Below, one piece after another: positions 38,775 through 47,466 of a stretch of DNA of 55,602 nucleotides. A model generated the notes under the pieces. That model was not told the DNA's origin. It saw only the letters and a list, made by a program, of their open reading frames with translations, and ran no database searches. The stretch covers positions 1 to 55,602 of the forward strand of contig NZ_VAWA01000015.1 of NCBI RefSeq assembly GCF_005771565.1, in the 5' to 3' direction. This stretch comes from Nesterenkonia sphaerica (GTDB lineage: Bacteria; Actinomycetota; Actinomycetes; Actinomycetales; Micrococcaceae). The translations under genes and the position numbers were made by a program. Position 1 is the first letter of the stretch. The number at the start of each line of letters is the position of its first letter.

Positions 38775-40724
38775 CTAGGGCCGGGAGCGCTCCACCAGCT
38801 CCAGCGCCCGCGCCGCTACGGCCTGGCGCAGTCCCCCCGGACGAATGACCTCAATGTCCCCGCCGGCCCGCAGGCAGGTGCCGATCACTGCCTCCTCGGT
38901 CACGAAGGAGGTGGAGATGATTCGGGCTCCGCTGGTCTTGTCGGTCTGCTGCCTCACCGGGCTGAATAAGACGGATTGCCCAGCGGCGCTGGGCGAGAAC
39001 CGCAGCACCACAGGGATCGCCGCATCGGCCGGTGCTGATGGGGTGCTGCTGCCGGTTTCGCGCAGCTGCGCGCCCTGCTCACTCTGCTGCTCATGGGGCA
39101 GCGGCCGAAGGTCAGTGATCCGATCCAGGCGGAAGAACCGTTCGCCCTGCGCCCGGCGGCACCAGGCACGCAGGTACACGTGCGGTCCCTGGTGGACCAC
39201 CTGGACGGGGTCGACCACCCGGGTGGTCCGGCGATCGGAGATATCGGTGTAACACAGGTCCACCGGGTGGCTGGCGATGATGGCCTGCTGGGCCTCTTTC
39301 AGCGCGGCCCGGTCGCCGGCCCCGGGTCCCAGGGACATCGACGCCGCAGTCTGGGCCAGCGTCGCCGGGACAATCGCCAGGACCTTCGTGCGCAGACTCT
39401 CAGCTGCCGCAGCGATGTGCTCATCCTCGGGCAAGCCGAGCTCGATGAGGCTCTGCAGGGCGATCAGCAGCCCCAGCGCCCCGGGCTTAGTCAGCGAGAC
39501 CGGCTTGTCCAGCGCACCGCCGCCCGTGGATCGCAGCACGATGGGCTCATCCGCGGCCAGGTACCGGGTGACAAACTCCTCATCGTTGAGAGGAGGAAAC
39601 GGCTGCACGTCGAGTGTGTCCGGGTACTGGTCTGTGGTGACGAGGCTGATGCTGAGCAGATCCCGGAGCAGCTGGGCGGGACTCAGGGAGTACTTCTCCA
39701 TCAGTTCGCTGGGCTGGACTGCGCCCCGGGCCAGCAGCAGCGCGATCATATTGATGACCCGCTCGGTCTTGGCGGCCGCGTCATCCTTGCGCCGCCCAGG
39801 AGTGACACGCGTGAGTTTCGGCAGCGTCCGGGGGGCCTCGCCCTGGTGCGCCCGCAGCGCTCCTTCCAGCACCTGGTGTCCGGTGAAGCCTTCGACGCCG
39901 CGGTCCAGTTCCGCGGCCACATCGAGGTCTTCGTAGCGCTCTGCGCGCGCGATCTGCTCCACGGTGGCGGCCTCGTCCTCACCCAGAGAAGAGGGCGGAA
40001 GCGTGCTGATAGTCCCGGAGACCCGGTCCAGCCGGTAGAGGCGTTGGGCCTTCCGGTCCAAGTCATGGGCCAGCAGGTACCAGTGCCCTCGGGCGCCGGT
40101 GCCCAGCGGCACGGCCCGCCGGGTTTCGGCTTGGGCCCGGCCCCGGGCTGTGTAGCGGAAGGTGATCGGGGTACGCAGACCGATCCGCGCGATCTCCAGC
40201 AGATGGTCCACCTCTTCGGCGGAGCCGATAGACGCCTGGGTGACCTGCGGGGCGCCCGGGGGCGCAGGCTCGGAGGCGTGCGGATCAACAGCCCACACGG
40301 CATGCGGGAGTCCAGCAATGGTGTGCTGGGCGAACTGCAGCTGAGCCTGGTACAGGGCCGAACGCTCTGCGGCAGTCAGGTCCAGGTCCGGAAGTCCGTA
40401 CTGGCTCCGGCTGATCCGGTAGCGGTAGTCCTCATCTGCGGTGGGCTCAATGAGGTCGATGCCGCAGTGTCGGAGGTGGTCTTTGTCGTGGGTGAAGAGT
40501 TTTTCCAATGCGGCGTCAGCCCGCTGGCGCTGAGCGCCGGTGAGCCGGTCTCGCTCGTCGCGGCGTTCGCGGTAGAGTTCGATCTTGTCGAAAATCTGCT
40601 CCCGGGTCAGACCGCCGGGGCGGTTGAGCAGGGCGTTGGCCAGGGACAGGGCGCGGACCACTCCGTCTTCGGCCGTTGCTGTCTGCGGTGCATCCTCCGC
40701 AAGATTCTCCTCATGCCACTGCAT
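38775..40724 (-). CDS. pafBC: PafBC fusion transcriptional regulator (HTH-WYL)
   Basis: The 649-residue protein is a single-chain fusion of PafB and PafC. The N-terminal half has a winged-HTH (VVRALSLANALLNRPGGLTREQIFDKI) and a WYL domain with RAVPLGTGARGHWYLLAHD. A linker leads to a second HTH (AVQPSELMEKYSLSPAQLLRDL) and a second WYL domain (VYLRAWCRRAQGERFFRLDRI). PafBC is the LexA/RecA-independent activator of the DNA-damage response in actinobacteria, and the fused form is known in Arthrobacter relatives. It lies 13 nt after the FKBP gene, in the Pup gene train as is usual. Confidence 0.9.
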   Translation of the reverse strand: MQWHEENLAEDAPQTATAEDGVVRALSLANALLNRPGGLTREQIFDKIELYRERRDERDRLTGAQRQRADAALEKLFTHDKDHLRHCGIDLIEPTADEDYRYRISRSQYGLPDLDLTAAERSALYQAQLQFAQHTIAGLPHAVWAVDPHASEPAPPGAPQVTQASIGSAEEVDHLLEIARIGLRTPITFRYTARGRAQAETRRAVPLGTGARGHWYLLAHDLDRKAQRLYRLDRVSGTISTLPPSSLGEDEAATVEQIARAERYEDLDVAAELDRGVEGFTGHQVLEGALRAHQGEAPRTLPKLTRVTPGRRKDDAAAKTERVINMIALLLARGAVQPSELMEKYSLSPAQLLRDLLSISLVTTDQYPDTLDVQPFPPLNDEEFVTRYLAADEPIVLRSTGGGALDKPVSLTKPGALGLLIALQSLIELGLPEDEHIAAAAESLRTKVLAIVPATLAQTAASMSLGPGAGDRAALKEAQQAIIASHPVDLCYTDISDRRTTRVVDPVQVVHQGPHVYLRAWCRRAQGERFFRLDRITDLRPLPHEQQSEQGAQLRETGSSTPSAPADAAIPVVLRFSPSAAGQSVLFSPVRQQTDKTSGARIISTSFVTEEAVIGTCLRAGGDIEVIRPGGLRQAVAARALELVERSRP

Positions 40725-42448: not shown

Positions 42449-43939
42449 TCAGATCAGTGGGGGCTCCGGCACCTGTGTGCCGGGCGCTCGGGTGTACTTG
42501 TCCGTCAGCGCGAGCGTGGCTCCCTGACGGCTGCGCTCCTCCAGGCTGCGTTCCTGAAGCTCGCTGCTGCGGTCGCCGAGCTTGTCCAGCAGTGCCTCCA
42601 CGCGCTGATCCTTCGCGGCGAACGGGTCTTTGACCATGATGGCCTCCAGCGGCCGGTCGGTGAGCTTGTGGTGGACCCAGTCCACGGTGCATTCGGCGCC
42701 GTAGGCCCGGGCGGTGGAGAGGAACTCCCCGCGCAGTGCCGCCCGGGTGGGCGGGGGTGTGGTCATGGCGTGGGTGACCTGGGCCCCTGAGACGATGGTT
42801 GCGGCCCGGCCCCGGCGGACCAGCAGGTGGTACAGCCCCCGGTCCGGGTGGACATCGTGATAAGCCATATCGATCTGCTGCAGGCGGGGGTGGTTGAGGT
42901 CCAACCGGCGCTGATGGCTGACCTCTTCGACCAGCCGTTTCTTGATGGCCCAGTCAATCTCCTGGTCGATCAGCTGGTGCTCGCCGGTCTCGACAGCCTG
43001 CAGGGTCCGATCCCACAGTTCGAGGATCTGGTCGACGTGGCTGTGGTGGGCTCCGCGTTCGGAGACGAAGCGGGTGACCCGGCGCAGAATCTCGCGCTGA
43101 ATGTTGATAGCGGTGACCTGCTCCCCGGTGCGGGTGCGCACCCGGGCCTGGCCACTGATGTCGTGGCTGATGGCGCGAATGGCTGCGATCGGGTTCTCCA
43201 GCTCGAAGTCTTCGATAGGCACACCGGCCTCGATCATCCTCAGCACCAGATCTGTGGAGCCGTAGCGCAGCAGAGACGTGGTCGTCGACATGTTGGAGTC
43301 GCCGACGATCACGTGCAGCCGCCGGTGGCTGGCCGCGTCAGCATGCGGCTCATCGCGGGTGTTGATGATGGGGCGTGACCGGGTGGTGGCACTGGAGATG
43401 CCTTCCCACATGTGGTCGGCCCGCTGCGAGAACGCGAAGTGCGCTTCGTAGGTGTCGTCTTCCTGGACTACTCGTCCCGCCCCAGCGATGATCTGTCTGG
43501 TCACCAGGAAGGGAAGCAGGATGCCCGAGAGTCGGCGGAAGTGGGTAGTGCGGGGTATCAGGTAGTTCTCGTGGCTGCCGTAGGAGTTCCCGGCGGAGTC
43601 CACGTTGTTCTTCAGCACGTAGACCGCACCGGTGAAACCGTCCTGGTGGATGCGTTCCTGGGCCGCCATGGCGAGGTCATGCATGACCCGTTCTCCGGCG
43701 CGGTCCGAGGCGATGAGGTCGATCAGGTCATCGCATTCGGCGGTGGCGTATTCAGGGTGGGATCCGACGTCGAGATAGAGACGCGAACCGTTGGGGATGA
43801 AAATATTTGAGCTGCGGCCGAAATCGACTACGGGACGGAACAGGTAGCGAGCAAGCTCGTCTGGGGGCAGCCCTCTACCGGTCTCGGGGCGGTGGGTGAG
43901 TCCGAATTCGGTTTCCACGCCGTAGACACGACGGTCCAC
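42449..43939 (-). CDS. pafA: Pup--protein ligase
   Basis: PafA uses ATP to join the C-terminal glutamate of Pup to substrate lysines. The 496-residue glutamine-synthetase-like protein starts RRVYGVETEFGL (catalytic Glu9 and Glu11 region), with the conserved Asp in YLDVGSHPEYAT, YGSHENYLIPR and GDSNMSTTTSLLRYGSTDLV. These distinguish it from Dop, which starts RLIGMETEYGI. The start is 3 nt after the pup stop. In proteasome-bearing actinobacteria prcB and prcA usually lie between pup and pafA; here there is no room for them. Confidence 0.95.
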   Translation of the reverse strand: MDRRVYGVETEFGLTHRPETGRGLPPDELARYLFRPVVDFGRSSNIFIPNGSRLYLDVGSHPEYATAECDDLIDLIASDRAGERVMHDLAMAAQERIHQDGFTGAVYVLKNNVDSAGNSYGSHENYLIPRTTHFRRLSGILLPFLVTRQIIAGAGRVVQEDDTYEAHFAFSQRADHMWEGISSATTRSRPIINTRDEPHADAASHRRLHVIVGDSNMSTTTSLLRYGSTDLVLRMIEAGVPIEDFELENPIAAIRAISHDISGQARVRTRTGEQVTAINIQREILRRVTRFVSERGAHHSHVDQILELWDRTLQAVETGEHQLIDQEIDWAIKKRLVEEVSHQRRLDLNHPRLQQIDMAYHDVHPDRGLYHLLVRRGRAATIVSGAQVTHAMTTPPPTRAALRGEFLSTARAYGAECTVDWVHHKLTDRPLEAIMVKDPFAAKDQRVEALLDKLGDRSSELQERSLEERSRQGATLALTDKYTRAPGTQVPEPPLI

Positions 43940-43942
43940 GCC

Positions 43943-44149
43943 CTACTGGCCGCCCTTCTGCACAAATCCTTTGACGAACTCTTCGGCGTTGGCCTCCAAC
44001 ACCGTGTCGATCTCATCCAGCAGGCTGTCCAGCTCGGCGGCACGTTCGGTGGCCTGCGGGTTTCCCTGCACCTGGGCGGCGGCGTCTGCGGAGTCCGGCT
44101 GGTCGCCCTCGCCGTGCCGGTGGGGCTGCTTCTGCGGCTGTGCTGGCAT
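43943..44149 (-). CDS. pup: Prokaryotic ubiquitin-like protein Pup
   Basis: This is the 68-residue protein tag. The N-terminal half is Gln/His/Asp-rich and disordered; the C-terminal half has the Mpa-binding helix (ERAAELDSLLDEIDTVLEANAEEFVKGFV) and ends GGQ. The terminal Gln must be deamidated to Glu by Dop before ligation. It lies between dop (9-nt gap) and pafA (3-nt gap). Confidence 0.97.
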   Translation of the reverse strand: MPAQPQKQPHRHGEGDQPDSADAAAQVQGNPQATERAAELDSLLDEIDTVLEANAEEFVKGFVQKGGQ

Positions 44150-44158
44150 GGGACTATC

Positions 44159-45865
44159 CTACCGCTGGCCCAGGATGCTCTGCAGGTCACGCACCAGCTG
44201 CGCGGGATTGGCTGCCTGCTGCAGCACCTGATCAGTCTGCTCTCTGCTGCCGGTGAAGGGGTTGCTCAAGTGCAGCCGCACCACCGGGGAGACCTCGTCA
44301 GGCCGCAGCAGGATCTGGTCCCAGGAGGCACCGGCCACGGATTCGGCATATTGGGTGATGAGCTGTCCGCGCAGCCAGGCGCGGGTTTCCTCGGGAGGAT
44401 GTGCTGCCGCCCAGGCGACCTGCTCGTCGGTGTAGAGCCGGCGCATCCGTCCTGCGCGCACCAGCCGGTAGTACAGGCCCTTCTCGGGGCGCAGGTCGTG
44501 ATACTGCAGGTCAATCATGCCCAGCTGCGCGGAGTCCCAGCTGAGGCCGTCCCGGCGTCGGTAGGACTGCAGCAGCTGCCACTTCGCCACCCAGTCGACC
44601 CGGTCCGCGGCCAGGGTGATGTCCTCGCTGAGGTCGGACAGGACCTCCCCCCAGGCTTCCACCAGCTCGGCTGTCTCGGTATCGGGTGCAGGGGCTGCGC
44701 TGACTTCACGGGCGTGTTCGAAGACCGCCTCCAGATACTGCTGCTGCACCTGAAGAGCGGTCATGGGCCCCTGATTGGTCGCCACGGTGCACGTCAGGGT
44801 GGGATCGTGAGAGATGTCCTTCAACGCTTGGACCGGATCGAGGAGCCTCACCTGGGGTGCTCTTCCGGCCTCGATGAGGTCGAGGACCAGTGCGGTGCTG
44901 CCCACCCGCAGCCAGGCGGAGTATTCGCTCATATTGGCGTCACCGATGATGACGTGCAGCCTGCGCCACCGGTCAAAGTCGGCGTGCGGTTCGTCGCGGG
45001 TGTTGATGATCGGACGCCGCACCGTGGTCTCCAGACCCACCTGCTCTTCGAAGAAGTCAGCGCGCTGAGAGATCTGGAAGCCCGCAGTCTGGGAGCGCTG
45101 GCCGATGCCCACGCGGCCTGCACCGCAGATCACCTGGCGGGTGGCGAAGAACGGAAGCAGCCCGTTGACGATGTCGTCAAACGGCACTGTCCGGGGCACC
45201 AGGTAGTTTTCGTGTGCCCCGTAGGAGACCGACTTGTTGTCGGTGTTGTTCTTGTAGAGCCGGATCTCGGGGGCGCCCGGCTCCTGTGCCAGCCGCTGGG
45301 CGGCCGCGCGGGCGATGAGGTCACCGGCGACGTCGTAGAGCACCGCCCGTTTCGGGCCCACCGTCTCGGGTGCGGAGTATTCAGGGTGGGCGTGATCCAC
45401 ATAGAACCTGGCGCCGTTGCCCAGTACGAGGTTCATCAGCATCTGCGGCTGGCCGGCCTCGGTGCGGTAGAAGTCCCCGCGCCAGTGCGCGGACCCCGGC
45501 GGGTGATCGCCCCGCTCCGCTGCGTCGGCGGGGCTGGGGTCTCCTCCGGAGATGTTCCCCAGGGCGTCCCGGACCGCCCCGGCACCGGGTTCCTGCTCTG
45601 CGGCGTAGCTGACCGCCTCGGAGGTGTCGGTCAGCTGCGTGGGGTGCGCTGCGGACCGGGGCAGTACCCATCCCCTGGCGTCCACCAGGGGGGATTCGGA
45701 CTGGTAGTCCCACTCTGTGCCGGCGACTGCTCCCCCGGATTCGGTCACCTGGGCGGCGTAGGCGTTGATCAGCTCGATGGATAGGCTCACGTGGCTGGCT
45801 CTGGGGTTTGCCGGGGCGTGGATACCGTATTCGGTCTCCATCCCGATCAGGCGCCGGGCGCTCAC
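44159..45865 (-). CDS. dop: Deamidase/depupylase Dop
   Basis: Dop converts the C-terminal Gln of Pup to Glu and removes Pup from substrates. The 568-residue protein shares the fold of PafA and begins RRLIGMETEYGI (Glu10). It has the conserved Asp in FYVDHAHPEYS, YGAHENYLVPR and GDANMSEYSAWLRVGSTALVLD. At 568 residues it is longer than the roughly 500 usual for the family. The extra sequence includes an acidic/proline stretch around residues 90-120, where Dop has its flexible loop. GTG 45865 forms a GTGA overlap with the mpa stop. Confidence 0.95.
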   Translation of the reverse strand: MSARRLIGMETEYGIHAPANPRASHVSLSIELINAYAAQVTESGGAVAGTEWDYQSESPLVDARGWVLPRSAAHPTQLTDTSEAVSYAAEQEPGAGAVRDALGNISGGDPSPADAAERGDHPPGSAHWRGDFYRTEAGQPQMLMNLVLGNGARFYVDHAHPEYSAPETVGPKRAVLYDVAGDLIARAAAQRLAQEPGAPEIRLYKNNTDNKSVSYGAHENYLVPRTVPFDDIVNGLLPFFATRQVICGAGRVGIGQRSQTAGFQISQRADFFEEQVGLETTVRRPIINTRDEPHADFDRWRRLHVIIGDANMSEYSAWLRVGSTALVLDLIEAGRAPQVRLLDPVQALKDISHDPTLTCTVATNQGPMTALQVQQQYLEAVFEHAREVSAAPAPDTETAELVEAWGEVLSDLSEDITLAADRVDWVAKWQLLQSYRRRDGLSWDSAQLGMIDLQYHDLRPEKGLYYRLVRAGRMRRLYTDEQVAWAAAHPPEETRAWLRGQLITQYAESVAGASWDQILLRPDEVSPVVRLHLSNPFTGSREQTDQVLQQAANPAQLVRDLQSILGQR

Positions 45866-47466
45866 GCTGGCGGACCGTTTCCAGCAGGGGCGGCGGCTCC
45901 GGACTCCAGTGAGGTGCGGCGCAGCCCGGCGACCATGTCTCGCTGCTCGGCCAGCTCCTGCTGGATAGCGGCGTCGAGGTGCTGCTGGGTGATGCCTTTG
46001 ACGTGTTCCTGTTCCGCCTGCGCCAGGTACTCCTTGATGGCCAGTTTCTTGGTCCGGTCAATGATGTTGCTCAGCACCGCTCCAGACATCAGCCCAGCGT
46101 GCGCCGGGTAGAGTTGGGAGACGGTAGCCTCGATCAGCGCCTCACGCAGCGCCTGACGCCCTCCGTGCCCTTCGATCAGAGCCGCACGCAGCGGCACCGA
46201 GTCACCCAGGTGGATCCGGAGGATCTCCCGGGCCCCGTCGGCGCTGGGACGCTGCACCCGGATCTTCACATCCAGCCGTCCGGGCCGGAGGATGGCGGGG
46301 TCGATCATGTCTTCCCGGTTGGAGGCACCGATGACGATGACGTTCTCCAGCGACTCCACCCCGTCGATCTCAGCCAGCAGCTGGGGCACGATAGTGGTCT
46401 CGACGTCGGAGGACACCCCGGTGCCGCGGGTGCGGAACAGCGCCTCCATCTCGTCGAAGAACACCACCACCGGTGAGCCCGCCGAGGCCCTCTCGCGGGC
46501 CCGGGCGAAGATGACTCGGATGTGCCGCTCGGTCTCGCCGACGTACTTGTTGAGCAGCTCGGGACCTTTGATGTTGAGGAAGTATGCGCCCGATTCCTCA
46601 CCGGCTGCCAGGGAGGTGGCCACGGCTTTGGCGATCATGGTCTTGCCGCAGCCGGGTGGGCCGTAGAGCAGAATGCCTTTGGGGGCGCGCAGCCCGTGTT
46701 CGCGGTAGAGCTCAGCGTGCAAGAACGGCAGCTCCACCGCGTCCCGGATCTGTTCGATCTGTTCGGCGAGCCCTCCGATGTCGCGGTAGGCGATATCGGG
46801 AGTCTCTTCCAGCACTACATCTTCGACGTCGGAGAGCGGGACCACTTCGGTCGCTGTACCGGTGCGCAGGTCCACCACCACGGTGTCGCCGACCCGGGCG
46901 GGCTTATCCCCCTCAGATTCGGCTCGGGCAGCAGCGGCGGAAAGTTTGACCACCCGTTCCTCCTCCCCCCGGGCGAGCACTACCAGCCGGCCGTCCGGCA
47001 GGATTTCTTTGACTCGGGCAATCTCGCCGGTGCCTTCCGGGTCCAGCACCGCAATCACGGTGTAGTTCTCGTTGAGCAGGACCTGACTTCCCGGGGTGAG
47101 CTCTTCGGGGCGGATCAGCGGAGAGACTGAGACGCGCAGTTTCCGGCCCGAGTGGAGGACATCGCAGCCGGGCGCAGTGGCGGCCTCGATCTCGCGTCCT
47201 TCGGTGCGCTCGCGCTGTTCGCGGTAGCCGATCACCGTGGCGAAGGTGAAGGGTGGCTGCCCGTCTGCTTCCAGTGCTTGTTTCAGCTGGTCGATCTGAC
47301 CGCGGGTGGCCTCCAGCGCCCCGGTGAGGCGTTCATTGCTGCGGCCTGCGCTGTGCAGCTGCTGCTCCAGGGTCCGCTGGCGCTGCCGCAGGTGATCGAT
47401 CTGCCGGTGAGCCTGCTCGAGTTTGCCCCGCAGCTCTGCGGTCTCGGTGGGAGTCTCACTGGTCAT
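45862..47466 (-). CDS. mpa: Proteasomal ATPase Mpa/ARC, lacking the C-terminal docking motif
   Basis: The 534-residue AAA unfoldase recognises pupylated proteins. An N-terminal coiled coil (about 10-65) binds Pup, OB-fold domains follow (about 75-220), then the ATPase domain with Walker A GPPGCGKT (269-276), Walker B VVFFDEME (334-341) and SRH region. In proteasome-bearing species the protein ends in a GQYL-type motif that opens the 20S core; here it ends AAAPAGNGPPA with no such motif. The gene overlaps trmI by 11 nt and dop by 4 nt. Confidence 0.95.
   Translation of the reverse strand: MTSETPTETAELRGKLEQAHRQIDHLRQRQRTLEQQLHSAGRSNERLTGALEATRGQIDQLKQALEADGQPPFTFATVIGYREQRERTEGREIEAATAPGCDVLHSGRKLRVSVSPLIRPEELTPGSQVLLNENYTVIAVLDPEGTGEIARVKEILPDGRLVVLARGEEERVVKLSAAAARAESEGDKPARVGDTVVVDLRTGTATEVVPLSDVEDVVLEETPDIAYRDIGGLAEQIEQIRDAVELPFLHAELYREHGLRAPKGILLYGPPGCGKTMIAKAVATSLAAGEESGAYFLNIKGPELLNKYVGETERHIRVIFARARERASAGSPVVVFFDEMEALFRTRGTGVSSDVETTIVPQLLAEIDGVESLENVIVIGASNREDMIDPAILRPGRLDVKIRVQRPSADGAREILRIHLGDSVPLRAALIEGHGGRQALREALIEATVSQLYPAHAGLMSGAVLSNIIDRTKKLAIKEYLAQAEQEHVKGITQQHLDAAIQQELAEQRDMVAGLRRTSLESGAAAPAGNGPPA

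Follow-up and report, generated by a model that had tools for sequence, protein, structure and literature searches.

A 2012 review (PMC3511204) suggested that species which have lost the proteasome may show what tagging a protein with Pup achieves when it does not mean 'destroy'. The locus described here bears on this question. In a 55,602-nt stretch of the Nesterenkonia sphaerica genome (contig NZ_VAWA01000015.1; hereafter the window), the four pupylation genes mpa, dop, pup and pafA follow one another in the same direction at 42449-47466 (minus strand), no 20S proteasome was found in the genome, and the ATPase Mpa lacks both its docking tail and the whole beta-grasp domain that faces the proteasome. 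Gene identities were assigned by NCBIfam equivalogs, with PafA, Pup, Dop and the Pup ATPase all above their cut-offs, and the locus reads as follows (aa, amino acids; AAA, ATPases associated with diverse cellular activities).

42449-43939, minus strand: pafA, Pup ligase (TIGR03686, 668 bits against a cut-off of 551)
43940-43942, minus strand: pup-pafA junction of 3 nt, the site of prcB and prcA in 20S-bearing relatives (sequence and relatives' loci)
43943-44149, minus strand: pup, 68 aa, C-terminus GGQ (TIGR03687, 70.7 bits against a cut-off of 41.5; alignment)
44159-45865, minus strand: dop, Pup deamidase/depupylase (TIGR03688, 608 bits against a cut-off of 492)
45862-47466, minus strand: mpa/arc, AAA ATPase dependent on Pup (534 aa), lacking docking tail and beta-grasp domain (626 bits against a cut-off of 505)

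Overlap between mpa and dop amounts to 4 nt, and gaps of 9 nt and 3 nt separate dop from pup and pup from pafA, so that the first-pass annotation was correct in the coordinates, order and strand of four contiguous genes with gaps of at most 9 nt and in placing no prcB or prcA between pup and pafA. For comparison, the pup-pafA interval was estimated at 1483-1656 nt in 10 of 11 prc-bearing loci, the eleventh (G167) being cut by the end of its contig. A profile search of the window genome (G000; 2.79 Mb, 86 contigs, 99.27% complete) with PF00227 gave no match even at an E-value of 10, while the same search gave a match in 11 of 14 control genomes, 10 of them above cut-off. Across 30 Nesterenkonia genomes (four of them only 62-82% complete) PF00227 was above cut-off in none, and five had sub-cut-off matches with E-values of 0.2-0.6. 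A 20S hidden elsewhere in the genome, which would have undone the annotation's account, was rejected on these two results. The activator Bpa (PF10759) is likewise absent from the window genome.

Mpa itself was examined by domain profiles, in an alignment of 196 Micrococcaceae Mpa and with an AlphaFold model (OB, oligonucleotide/oligosaccharide-binding):

47263-47451, minus strand: N-terminal helix, residues 6-68, the Pup-binding coiled-coil segment in the M. tuberculosis homologue (AlphaFold model; role from PMC8755798)
46837-47244, minus strand: interdomain OB domains, residues 75-210 (PF17758 and PF16450 above cut-off)
46252-46674, minus strand: AAA motor, residues 265-405, containing the Walker motifs and a KYVG pore loop (PF00004, 131.5 bits; sequence)
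46087-46107, minus strand: place of the missing beta-grasp hairpin, with 4 residues at the site (alignment)
45865-45936, minus strand: shortened C-terminus, residues 511-534, replacing the last beta-strand region and GQYL (alignment, model)

The hairpin measures 22-36 residues in other Micrococcaceae Mpa, and a phmmer alignment with M. tuberculosis Mpa opens a gap at residues 489-513 of the latter, matching the missing hairpin. In the model (mean predicted local distance difference test score, pLDDT, 81.5) the coiled coil, OB and AAA parts are kept, no strand of at least 3 residues occurs beyond residue 403, and confidence is low from residue 520; the matches listed by fold comparison with this model include Mpa and other AAA relatives, and the motifs of the AAA motor fall mostly in invariant alignment columns. 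The protein does end in AAAPAGNGPPA, so the docking tail is missing as had been annotated, but that description understated the change: hairpin and last strand are both gone, and with them the whole beta-grasp domain. In M. tuberculosis the hairpin touches the gate helices of the 20S, and the contacts to the 20S described in print are this hairpin and the GQYL end (PMC9599533, PMC8755798); unlike that Mpa-20S pair, the window has no 20S, no Bpa, no GQYL and no beta-grasp domain. A sequencing error concealing a longer Mpa end was ruled out, the short end being common to 13 Nesterenkonia genomes. The final residues are nearly identical in G178 and G210 and vary among relatives more widely; identity over the best-matching Mpa segment was 81% for N. 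ebinurensis and 67% for N. halophila.

We then asked how tail and 20S are distributed across 197 evenly drawn Micrococcaceae genomes, in which 196 Mpa C-termini could be read (the end of the G067 sequence is cut by its contig). PF00227 was present in 106 of the 197 and Mpa in 196; the genome without it, G189, is 91% complete with 6% contamination, and Mpa was found in all 189 genomes that reach 90% completeness with contamination no higher than 5%. The GQYL end was carried by 101/106 Mpa from genomes with PF00227 and by 1/90 from genomes without, a difference that links loss of GQYL to absence of the 20S beyond chance. Bpa showed a similar split (91/106, with G076 below cut-off, versus 1/90), as did the hairpin loop A-x-G-[DE] (91/106 versus 3/73), the loop being counted only in hairpins of 23 residues, which leaves out 17 of the 90 genomes without PF00227; the latter count agrees with the published statement that the loop is conserved only in 20S-bearing species (PMC8755798). 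As a separate observation, ten genomes combined PF00227 and a GQYL-ending Mpa with no PF10759 match: G015, G045 and G069 (g15, Tersicoccus), G025 and G053 (g25), G057, G145, G158 and G171 (g31), and G106 (g10).

In the census the hairpin was missing from 4 of the 196 Mpa, all four from Nesterenkonia, which corresponds to 4/90 in genomes without PF00227 against 0/106 in genomes with it; among the 28 intact Mpa of the genus, the hairpin is missing from 13, and the shortened C-terminus occurs in 13 genomes. On a phylogeny built from the Mpa core together with Dop, 3 changes are needed to account for the 13 domain-less rows, which were grouped together in 0% of 200 bootstrap trees, and an approximately unbiased (AU) test rejected a single clade (p 0.0017), results that speak against a single origin within the genus. 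The branches with strong support, however, require no more than 1 change of beta-grasp state by themselves, and this is one locus, at which recombination could mimic multiple losses; the domain was thus perhaps lost in Nesterenkonia more than once.

Outside the family, 396 genomes of the order were searched with the hairpin-less segment of the window Mpa as query, and since matches were ranked by similarity to the window the search yields no frequencies. Among the matches listed, Mpa was read from 28 non-Micrococcaceae genomes and from 19 further ones (20 stretches, G249 giving none), and family f9 ranked directly after the window and G012. Hairpin and last strand were missing from 26 of 26 f9 Mpa (25 plus G363), and none of these 26 genomes had PF00227. 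The f9 proteins, from the same order, resemble the window Mpa in what they lack and differ from it in their helical C-terminus, which ends in other residues; because f9 is another family, a separate loss of the beta-grasp domain is most likely. G330 (family f3, no PF00227), whose Mpa lacks the last strand and has a 17-residue unrelated stretch in place of the hairpin, is likely a further case. Loss of the domain is thus found in at least two families, which suggests that the core job of Mpa needs the coiled coil, OB ring and AAA motor, the parts that went missing serving only the 20S.

Selection on the locus was assessed by the ratio of nonsynonymous to synonymous substitution rates (dN/dS). 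Between the window and G178 the values were 0.041 (Mpa), 0.074 (Dop), 0.020 (Pup) and 0.082 (PafA), a rough comparison with dS of 1.4-2.6, near saturation; between the window and N. ebinurensis they were 0.16-0.20 for all four genes. Taking the nine pairwise comparisons together, dN/dS was 0.02-0.46, well below 1 throughout, and the highest values (0.40 and 0.46) belong to Pup in pairs that keep the beta-grasp domain. The four pupylation genes are under purifying selection although the docking parts are gone.

Given that no 20S was found and that the tailless ATPase is intact and under purifying selection, it is natural to suppose that tagged proteins are remodelled and not degraded by a 20S, and to this extent we follow the first-pass annotation; the unfolding and recycling that it also proposed enter our account as conditional steps. 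We consider it likely that the locus supports a complete pupylation cycle without 20S degradation, in which Mpa would work as a free-standing, Pup-guided unfoldase and Dop would recycle the tag. In such a cycle Dop would deamidate Pup-GGQ, PafA would join Pup to lysines of target proteins, and Mpa, presumably a hexamer, would catch Pup by its N-terminal coiled coil and pull the tagged protein through the AAA pore. The polypeptide would leave on the far side of the ring, since no 20S is encoded and the GQYL and beta-grasp contacts are absent; the target might thereby be extracted from a complex, unfolded or refolded, and Dop would strip Pup for another round. In this part of the tree, undocking of Mpa probably preceded loss of the 20S genes, and the beta-grasp domain would have been deleted once the 20S had gone, perhaps repeatedly.

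Several points weigh against this account. The beta-grasp domain is kept in 15 of 28 intact Nesterenkonia Mpa, so it either has some use left in certain cells that lack a 20S or is slow to disappear. Absence of GQYL alone is no proof of undocking, given that 7 of 8 PF00227 genomes of other families also have an Mpa without GQYL (a biased sample, chosen for short Mpa). Finally, the sole PF00210 match in the genome is a Dps-like protein (107.8 bits, below the Dps cut-off of 114; ferritin types outside PF00210 were not searched). The pupylated ferritin of Corynebacterium glutamicum, the proteasome-free case studied in most depth, is described as being dismantled by ARC and recycled through Dop (PMC8223512); it can thus not simply be carried over as substrate, and ferritin release as in that species was set aside. 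Dps, a many-subunit shell, would be a fair first candidate. The seven genomes just mentioned, with PF00227 but no GQYL on Mpa, are G273, G567, G517, G448, G427, G437 and G346 (families f11, f6 and f20).

It is unlikely, though worth weighing first among the alternatives, that Pup is itself the signal, attached by PafA and taken off again by Dop, with Mpa helping to bind or strip Pup and unfolding little. Such a signal would fit the intact state of PafA, Dop and Pup and the purifying selection on them, as well as the phenotypes of Streptomyces coelicolor pup or pafA mutants, unlike those of prc mutants (cited in PMC8223512); but Mpa keeps its AAA and OB domains, and its dN/dS against G178, second-lowest of the four, indicates more constraint than a scaffold would seem to need. 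Delivery of Pup-tagged proteins by Mpa to another peptidase, for instance Clp, is somewhat less probable still. It would explain why a translocating motor is retained despite the missing 20S, yet the docking side has lost both tail and beta-grasp domain, and the Mpa end varies among relatives with no conserved new docking motif seen. We give little credence to a vestigial system decaying after loss of the 20S. The stepwise loss of tail, hairpin loop and then domain would suit it, as would the broken Mpa reading frames of G197 and G207, two of the 30 Nesterenkonia records (the G207 genome is 62% complete), but decay is disfavoured by dN/dS well below 1 in all four genes and all nine pairs and by the near-universal occurrence of Mpa in the family. 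That a 20S is present and was missed by an assembly of 86 contigs at 99.27% completeness is scarcely credible, with the canonical site closed to 3 nt and no PF00227 above cut-off in any of the 30 genomes of the genus.

If Mpa indeed works as a free-standing unfoldase, the question becomes when it parted from the 20S. The first-pass annotation had loss of prcBA followed by decay of the tail, an order that is doubtful for the lineage of Nesterenkonia. A quick-method phylogeny of the core of 92 Mpa from the family, which carried a warning for long branches, requires 8 changes in PF00227 presence, at least 5 of them forced by strong branches. Nesterenkonia groups there with g4, g14, g16, G001 and Enteractinococcus (g21) at 97% in the Shimodaira-Hasegawa-like approximate likelihood ratio test (SH-aLRT; quick method), and within this group PF00227 occurs only in G001 and in 4 of 9 Enteractinococcus (G093, G110, G155 and G167). 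The Mpa of all five already lacks GQYL, and none of the five genomes has a PF10759 match, which leaves them with an orphan 20S that has no known activator, although G167 is only 71% complete and its lack of Bpa counts for little. prcBA lies at the canonical pup-pafA place in G093, G110, G155 and G001 (L180, L181, L182 and L184), with the catalytic threonine of PrcB and two pocket residues of PrcA kept. In a PrcBA tree (36 loci submitted, ten without a readable prcBA pair dropped) Enteractinococcus and G001 form one clade (98/87); the wider group of 20 rows around it is unresolved and takes in other Micrococcaceae as well as three f6/f11 rows; the PrcBA of G567 and of two f6 genomes were on long branches.

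Since prcBA is canonical wherever it was read and its products form one clade, the Mpa tail was probably lost before the 20S in this part of the tree, and one basal tail loss followed by several losses of the 20S would be the shorter history. Re-acquisition of prcBA by Enteractinococcus and G001 is not favoured, again because of the single clade and canonical place, although a transfer into them is conceivable. In G008 (g9) the annotated order does seem to apply. Its pup-pafA gap of about 272 nt holds a likely prcBA remnant (L136:3332-3590, minus strand), in which a piece resembling the start of PrcB (E 0.7, weak alone) joins the end of PrcA (E 1e-4), and GQYL is still found at the end of its Mpa and of its Bpa, the latter of which carries an internal deletion; here prcBA seems to have been lost recently, by one deletion, with GQYL still in place. 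Both orders of loss thus seem to occur, and G008 together with the orphan-20S genomes may let the sequence of events be read.

For the branch holding Nesterenkonia, g4, g14, g16, G001 and Enteractinococcus we tentatively propose, at somewhat less than even confidence, that undocking came first: Mpa would have become free-standing while a 20S was still encoded, the 20S would then have been an orphan and been lost repeatedly, and some Nesterenkonia Mpa would afterwards have shed the whole proteasome-facing domain. If so, Mpa would play the part of p97/Cdc48 in bacteria, Pup standing in for ubiquitin, and the orphan 20S would depend on some unrecognized activator or on a gate that stands open. 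A DNA pattern search for a GQYL-ending activator in G093, G110, G155 and G001 gave only frames 4-65 residues long and, in G155, a longer one of 128, all taken as non-coding by eye; it was aimed at GQYL only (other HbYX-type endings and a Cdc48-like Cpa were not searched, and G167 was left out), and two Enteractinococcus places stayed unread, one ending in TGG with no stop. The same pattern recovered Mpa and Bpa in 4/4 controls (G004, G026, G144 and G008). Bpa is said to occur in every 20S-bearing actinobacterium (PMC8223512). An orphan 20S as such would not be new, since Propionibacterium acnes is on record with a 20S and neither ARC ATPase nor Bpa (PMC4254994).

Proteasome-free pupylation, which the first-pass annotation had presented as known, is indeed in print as a general idea, and the window adds a further member to that group. 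Some actinobacteria without proteasome genes retain pupylation, with pup directly before pafA and an ATPase kept without C-terminal docking motif (PMC3511204); C. glutamicum, which the window resembles in all these respects, is such a case, and its ATPase has been proposed to unfold substrates rather than deliver them for degradation (PMC3511204, PMC8223512). Unlike the window Mpa, from which hairpin and last strand are gone, the C. glutamicum protein keeps the hairpin with an altered loop (PMC8755798), and the ferritin that serves as substrate there has only a Dps-like relative in the window genome. Removal of the whole proteasome-facing domain goes one step beyond this known state. We found no report of an Mpa without the beta-grasp domain in the pupylation literature searched, including the available parts of PMC8223512, PMC6017811, PMC3511204, PMC9599533, PMC8755798 and PMC4254994, and nothing pairing 'pupylation' with 'Nesterenkonia'. 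The genus offers a neat test, since some of its species keep the beta-grasp domain and others have shed it, and no 20S has been found in any of them.

The remaining features of the locus concern the tag and its two enzymes, in which the following motifs are common to relatives by alignment:

within pafA (42449-43939), minus strand: PafA motif DVGSHPEYATAE
within dop (44159-45865), minus strand: Dop motif YVDHAHPEYS

We take both to be active-site motifs. The C-terminal half of Pup is likewise common to relatives, and its GGQ end means that it needs Dop. In five Nesterenkonia (G107, G188, G042, G089 and G066; L097-L100 and L107) Pup ends in GGE, so deamidation should be unnecessary there; Dop is kept in 5/5 of these genomes. 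The window Dop also has a stretch of about 60 residues (45443-45625, residues ~81-141), mostly common to G178 and N. ebinurensis, which Enteractinococcus, Rhodococcus and Streptomyces have in a shorter form or lack (alignment); a regulatory loop lies at roughly this position in Dop.

On its 5' side the locus adjoins a TrmI-like tRNA methyltransferase gene (PF14801, PF08704), and on its 3' side lie two FKBP-type isomerase-like proteins (below NCBIfam cut-offs), a PafBC-like regulator and tatC. Such surroundings are usual for a pupylation locus. The regulator (38775-40724), 649 aa long, contains two WYL stretches together with HTH_PafC and WCX domains and appears to be PafB and PafC fused in one chain, a fusion known for Arthrobacter.

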